A stretch of DNA of 64,000 nt, taken from NCBI GenBank assembly GCA_015345905.1, contig JADDTR010000005.1:1116001-1180000 (forward strand), in the 5' to 3' direction. The translations under genes were made by a program, and so were the position numbers. Positions 7,875 to 8,006 of this stretch are shown here, in pieces (within the stretch, counting starts at the first letter, position 1; every line of letters begins with the position of its first letter). The notes under the pieces were generated by a model. The model was given only the letters and a program-made list of their open reading frames with translations, did not search any database and was not told where the DNA came from. The DNA comes from Aotearoamyces nothofagi. Its lineage: Eukaryota > Ascomycota > Leotiomycetes > Leotiales > Tympanidaceae.

Positions 7875-8006
7875 GGTTCATTGGTGTAATGGTCAGCACG
7901 GTAAGCATTTTCCGGTGAACATAAAAATCGTAAAGATTCTCTGCTGATTACTCATAATAGTCGGATTCTGATTCCGGAGATATTGGTTCGATTCCTATAT
8001 GAACCT
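7875..8006 (+). tRNA. tRNA-Gln (anticodon CUG) with a 60-nt GT-AG insertion between D-arm and anticodon arm
   Basis: Acceptor strands GGTTCAT (7875-7881) and ATGAACC (7999-8005) pair perfectly and are followed by a discriminator base. The A box TGGTGTAATGG and the B box GGTTCGATTCC fit the Pol III consensus. The anticodon stem is 7961-7965 with 7973-7977, and its loop TTCTGAT reads CUG, for glutamine. The T-stem has one T-T mismatch. Bases 7901-7960 lie between position 26 and position 27 of the tRNA; removing exactly these 60 nt gives a normal 72-nt tRNA. The insertion starts GTAAGC, ends ATAATAG and has a CTGAT branch-like motif 13 nt before its end, like the short mRNA introns of the neighbouring genes. 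Eukaryotic nuclear tRNA introns normally sit at 37/38. The alternative is a disrupted tRNA copy. Confidence 0.8.

Follow-up and report, generated by a model that had tools for sequence, protein, structure and literature searches.

GT-AG introns of mRNA type in tRNA genes of the fungus Aotearoamyces nothofagi

Introns in tRNA and other non-coding RNA genes

The U6 snRNA genes of some fungi contain spliceosomal introns, which are spliced out. Like the introns described here, they are mRNA-type introns in a gene of RNA polymerase III (Pol III); a single snRNA is concerned there, whereas at least twelve tRNA genes are concerned here. In the rDNA of lichen fungi, ectopic spliceosomal introns have been described that are removed from Pol I rRNA by yeast spliceosomes (PMC8527467, available text). 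These too are spliceosomal introns in genes for structured non-coding RNAs, excised from a transcript that is not made by Pol II; the host genes are Pol I rRNA genes, as opposed to tRNA genes in the present case. With the lichen Pol I rRNA introns and the fungal U6 introns as precedents, spliceosomal excision is taken below as the simplest account.

Non-canonical tRNA introns of eukaryotes are placed in Cyanidioschyzon merolae and in nucleomorphs by PMC4090602, in whose available text the word stem “spliceosom” is absent. According to PMC4090602 and PMC3978253, nuclear and nucleomorph tRNA genes of such organisms likewise have introns outside position 37/38, sometimes several per gene. Those of C. 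merolae are assigned there to BHB motifs and the SEN endonuclease, and many of the nucleomorph introns are very short, with a mechanism given as unknown; the introns reported here, in contrast, have GT-AG ends and a branch site. For tRNAscan-SE 2.0, the detection of non-canonical introns is described for archaea (PMC8450103, available text), and the accessible portions of PMC3978253 and PMC11782384 report no spliceosomal intron in a tRNA gene. In the literature covered, with subscription papers mostly outside its scope, no tRNA gene was described as carrying a spliceosomal intron, and a prior description is possible. In tRNA genes, and at the scale seen here, such introns appear to be new; in other non-coding RNA genes they are known.

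The tRNA-Gln(CUG) gene

We analyzed a 64,000-nucleotide stretch of contig JADDTR010000005.1 (positions 1,116,001 through 1,180,000; herein the window) together with searches of the genome, which comprises 25,475,336 bases in 55 contigs. The tRNA-Gln(CUG) gene on the + strand of the window consists of a 5′ exon (7875 through 7900; tRNA nucleotides 1 through 26), a 60-nt GT-AG intron (7901 through 7960; C5:1123901-1123960) at tRNA positions 26/27, and a 3′ exon with the anticodon CTG (7961 through 8006; nucleotides 27 through 73); the boundaries given in the initial annotation proved exact on re-reading. The intron opens with the 5′ splice site GTAAGC (7901 through 7906), ends in ATAATAG and, by splice-signal comparison, contains the branch-site motif CTGAT (7944 through 7948). 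The predicted branch A (7947) sits 13 nt before the intron end, in agreement with the distance originally noted.

Removal of residues 7901 through 7960 leaves a 72-nt product that ARAGORN calls tRNA-Gln(CUG). When 504 excisions of 56 to 62 nt were ranked with a custom cloverleaf score, 7900 through 7959 and 7901 through 7960 tied for the top score and gave an identical product; the GT-AG ends belong to the second. The initial annotation held that a complete tRNA-Gln fold follows from removal of these 60 nt; the excision is indeed the best of those scored, while the fold is not perfect, because the T stem contains one U-U mismatch. A stem with a single mismatch is also present in three uninterrupted tRNAs (Thr-AGU, eMet and Ala-UGC). 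Apart from this mismatch, the locus has the attributes of a functional tRNA gene: a cloverleaf, an A box (TGGTGTAATGG; 7882 through 7892) that is unbroken in the unspliced DNA, a B box (GGTTCGATTCC; 7985 through 7995) located by the B-box pattern search, and a run of seven T (8036 through 8042) that is a probable Pol III terminator. An upstream element (TATATAGCGAGATAAGCAAAA; 7809 through 7829) is almost repeated before the initiator tRNA-Met gene and is probably a Pol III upstream promoter. A GH64 β-1,3-glucanase gene (5274 through 6557; Pfam E 4e-121) lies upstream of the tRNA gene.

Genes of this kind can be overlooked by tRNA finders. ARAGORN in its default mode, without introns allowed, reports no tRNA at the unspliced Gln(CUG) locus, and the Rfam default threshold gives no match in the 64-kb window, this gene included. 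With anticodon-loop introns allowed (-i), ARAGORN proposes a tRNA-Ile(GAT) with a 38-nt intron at 31/32 and a 95-base product; we rejected this reading because the anticodon stem would then be mismatched and a long extra variable loop would have to form. Group I and group II introns have a ribozyme core and are usually longer than 200 nt. No Rfam match to such a core was found in the window, the Gln(CUG) intron has just 60 nt, and at ten loci with other interrupted genes Rfam returned only three tRNA matches.

Twelve interrupted genes, their signals and their paralogs

A GT-AG intron of 50 to 76 nt outside 37/38 is present in 12 of 43 recognized tRNA genes. The initial proposal that a tRNA gene holds an intron of mRNA type is supported, and it now extends beyond a single gene to at least twelve. 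Eight sites are used: 8/9 in Gln(UUG) (C4:484746-484801), 9/10 in Leu(AAG) (C5:279231-279280), 10/11 in Cys(GCA) (C14:53504-53557), 13/14 in Arg(UCG) (C1:874836-874911), 18/19 in Thr(UGU) (C29:231360-231416) and in the first and second copies of Lys(CUU) (C25:230819-230882 and C3:1382498-1382556), 24/25 in initiator Met (iMet; C11:207052-207118) and Ala(AGC) (C13:638364-638416), 26/27 in Gln(CUG), and 51/52 in Ser(AGA) (C2:1424172-1424230) and Asn(GUU) (C34:148915-148966); the site numbers and the Ser, Leu and iMet identities were set by eye from the sequence. An additional insert at 37/38 occurs in seven of the twelve (the second Lys, Ala, Leu, Ser, Asn, Gln(UUG) and Arg). Excision restores the tRNA in every case, as judged by script for eight genes, by ARAGORN for two, and by eye for Ser and Leu, the spliced Leu also being near-identical to its paralog.

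The 43 genes were drawn from the places matched by the Rfam tRNA model (36, with 31 above the cut-off, among the best 63 of 791 candidates), from the part of the pattern matches that was read, and from an own-genome covariance model run on 85 sources. The B-box pattern GGTTCRANYCC matches 151 places, as against 152 for the reversed control, so most are chance matches; as about half of the 151 were read, the list of tRNA genes is incomplete, and 12 of 43 should not be taken as the proportion for the whole genome. A wider scan of the fetched DNA gave no thirteenth interrupted gene, none of 12 short fetched stretches was tRNA-like by eye, and tRNAs for Trp, Phe, His and others were not recognized in the DNA examined. 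A single query combining seven tRNA sequences, for which there was no positive control, gave no matches. Counted as uninterrupted among the 43 is an uncertain tRNA-like locus (L028, 1501 through 1644, − strand; C23:266621-266764), which has a good T arm, an ATAAGC-like upstream motif, an odd anticodon arm with the anticodon TCT, and a 72-nt insert at 37/38 that, by eye, could fold into a long hairpin. Left out is L073 (1971 through 2030, − strand, contig C4), where a tRNA-type upstream element precedes a short hairpin-like segment whose outer stem is GGGCGGG/CCCGCCC; a normal T arm is lacking, and the model score is weak (14.7 bits).

All twelve introns start with GTNNG, end with AG, and have a YTRAY motif whose A lies 9 to 14 nt before the end; of the few boundary placements that yield an identical product, those with GT-AG ends were preferred. 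The 5′ splice sites are GTAAGT/C/A, GTATGT/G, GTCAGT or GTGAGT, and the branch motifs are CTAAC, CTAAT, CTGAT, CTGAC or TTAAC. In 400,000 random draws of genome segments with the lengths of the first ten introns, same-product shifts being allowed, GTNNG...AG was matched at a frequency of 1.3e-3, and 1.7e-4 when the branch motif was added. None of the twelve is at 37/38, the position of canonical nuclear tRNA introns. Canonical introns are found in the same genome and, as noted above, even within the same genes, but differ in position, in length and in their ends: the 37/38 introns of class I tRNAs (n = 21, a set that leaves out class II tRNAs, Gln(UUG), Arg(UCG) and L028) have 10 to 42 nt, none starts with GT and one ends with AG. 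Ten mRNA-intron candidates in the window, taken from a crude ORF-joining heuristic that favors such signals and unvalidated, are 45 to 97 nt long with a median branch distance of 10, to be compared with 50 to 76 nt for the tRNA introns. Five consecutive T are absent from all twelve tRNA introns, which is not telling because they are also absent from all ten heuristic mRNA introns.

The spliced Gln(CUG) 72-mer matches only its own two exons in the genome, and no intact intronless tRNA-Gln(CUG), which the initial annotation would have counted against its reading, was found elsewhere in the genome. A pattern for the Gln 5′ half, with up to two mismatches, matched 38 places (48 for the reversed control); judged by the matched letters, no other tRNA-Gln was among them, and the tRNAs recognized were the Gln(CUG) gene, two tRNA-Glu and Val(CAC) (18 places were read in their sequence context, and the covariance-model scan took in 28 of the 30 places, out of 38, that had loci). 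Nor did the 38 places include an uninterrupted Gln(UUG) sharing the known 5′ half, which has two mismatches to the pattern; Gln(UUG), the other glutamine tRNA, is interrupted too. Eight spliced tRNAs, Arg(UCG) and Gln(UUG) not being among these queries, gave 19 matches in genome searches that score only the best candidates. No uninterrupted iMet, Cys, Thr(UGU), Ser(AGA) or Lys(CUU) was among the 19, and the assembly may lack copies; both copies of Lys(CUU) are interrupted, and uninterrupted-type paralogs appeared only for Asn, Leu(AAG) and Ala(AGC).

Comparison of the Asn, Lys and Ala paralog pairs shows 10 altered stem pairs, all of which are still paired, 8 of them by double change. In the Asn pair, one acceptor pair and one T-stem pair co-vary across the intron that lies between their halves. 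In Asn and Ala, such compensatory substitutions may have arisen before the intron was acquired. The two Lys genes have a common intron site. Their exons are identical at 70 of 73 bases; their introns agree in 45 of 74 aligned columns (61%), within the shuffled range (mean 55%, maximum 64%). Conserved exons with diverged introns are what one would expect if selection acts on the spliced product, and there may also be a contribution from independent insertion or from gene conversion of the exons. In both Lys(CUU) genes (L097 and L060) the anticodon stem retains a U-U mismatch, and another pair of that stem differs between them (A-U in one, G-C in the other).

Proposed transcription, excision and origin of the introns

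A full A box (8/8) is present in the unspliced DNA of 9 of the 12 interrupted genes; unspliced Leu and Gln(UUG) match at 7/8, and the A box of Arg(UCG) is truly split by the intron. In Lys, Thr and Cys it is the first G or the final TAG of the intron that rebuilds the A box. The B box is unbroken in the genes found by pattern, in a search that itself demanded a B box. Runs of five or more T lie 4 to 38 nt downstream in 10/10 interrupted genes and within 48 nt in 30/30 uninterrupted ones. By a weak criterion, TATA occurs within 75 nt upstream in 10/10 interrupted and 19/30 uninterrupted genes. A loosely defined ATAAGC-like motif, often after TATA, lies 20 to 32 nt upstream in 27 of 41 tRNA genes; it is more distant at Thr(CGU) (46), iMet (41) and Gln(CUG) (55), in the last case about 28 nt further upstream than usual.

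We regard it as highly probable that the Gln(CUG) locus is a functional nuclear tRNA gene with a spliceosomal, U2-type GT-AG intron at 26/27, one of at least twelve so interrupted, and that it is probably transcribed by Pol III. Points that weigh against this reading are the T-stem U-U mismatch and the displaced upstream element of the Gln(CUG) gene, the split A box of Arg(UCG) and the slightly changed ones of Leu and Gln(UUG), and the uninterrupted-type paralogs of Asn, Leu(AAG) and Ala(AGC). The same introns might instead be spliced by the spliceosome from Pol II transcripts, longer capped RNAs being cut by RNase P and RNase Z. Pol II transcripts are the normal spliceosome substrates, as is well established, and yet A and B boxes and nearby T-run terminators are retained in the interrupted genes as in the uninterrupted ones, and most interrupted genes have TATA or ATAAGC-like elements upstream; many of them were found by a search that required the B box, which limits the weight of that box here. 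On this evidence a Pol II origin of the precursors seems unlikely. A SEN tRNA splicing endonuclease of relaxed specificity, as in Cyanidioschyzon and nucleomorphs, would make the GT-AG ends incidental. Introns outside 37/38 do exist in C. merolae and nucleomorph tRNA genes (PMC4090602 and PMC3978253, available text), and 3 of 10 introns scored have BHB-like pairing of 7 to 8 out of 10. The mean BHB score of the ten GT-AG introns (5.4) is near random (5.2), in a test that separates poorly because ten known 37/38 introns average only 6.0. The uniformity of the GT-AG signals, complete with branch motif in 12/12 introns and with GT-AG ends in 0/21 of the 37/38 introns, makes excision by SEN less likely, and we give it very little credence.

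Two further explanations concern how the inserts arose and whether the genes work. The 60-nt insert could be an introner, as the initial annotation allowed, or some other mobile element with copies throughout the genome. In keeping with such spread, many tRNA genes have been struck, sites recur (18/19 three times, 24/25 and 51/52 twice each), and among 45 intron pairs compared the top six align with z values of 3.0 to 5.1 against partial shuffles in which the branch motif was not fixed. A genome search with the Gln(CUG) insert, however, recovered its own copy only and so gave no sign of an introner family, and by eye the introns have little in common besides the splice signals. For this insert the single-copy result already largely refutes the introner explanation, which we consider highly improbable. 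The least probable reading is that these are decaying pseudogenes with chance or transposed insertions. PMC4090602, in its available text, regards insertions in the D and T arms of eukaryotic tRNA genes as mostly pseudogenes, and the T-stem mismatch of the Gln(CUG) gene would fit; against decay stand the solely interrupted copies found for iMet, Cys, Thr(UGU), Ser(AGA), Lys(CUU) and Gln(CUG), the stem pairing held by compensatory change in the Asn, Lys and Ala paralogs, and the uniform splice signals.

For functional genes with spliceosomal introns, we infer Pol III transcription, actual splicing and use of the product as follows. Pol III would transcribe the gene from its A and B boxes together with the upstream TATA element and would stop at the T run; the spliceosome would take out the GT-AG intron, the tRNA endonuclease would separately excise the 37/38 intron where there is one, and RNase P and RNase Z would trim the ends. 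Precursors of one Lys, one Ala, one Leu and one Asn tRNA, and those of Ser(AGA), Arg(UCG) and Gln(UUG), would have to be processed by the tRNA endonuclease as well as by the spliceosome. Since iMet, Cys, Lys(CUU) and all Gln tRNAs were found solely in GT-AG-interrupted form, translation initiation and the reading of several codons would rely on the spliceosome to process transcripts made by Pol III, and it is fairly probable that the spliceosome is here an obligatory enzyme of tRNA maturation. This suggests that protein synthesis in this genome depends on the mRNA splicing machinery.

Introns of mRNA type in initiator and glutamine tRNA genes would tie the capacity for translation to the activity of the spliceosome. 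They offer a natural test of whether spliceosomes can process transcripts of Pol III and of the route by which introns reach new genes; one idea is that they reverse-splice into structured RNAs. For U6 snRNA, another Pol III gene, this genome has two above-threshold places, which span 107 and 111 nt and cover the entire model, so that no long insert is present. At C22:218611-219418 (L012), three tRNA-Ile(AAU) genes lie within 0.8 kb; their exons are identical and their 37/38 introns are different.
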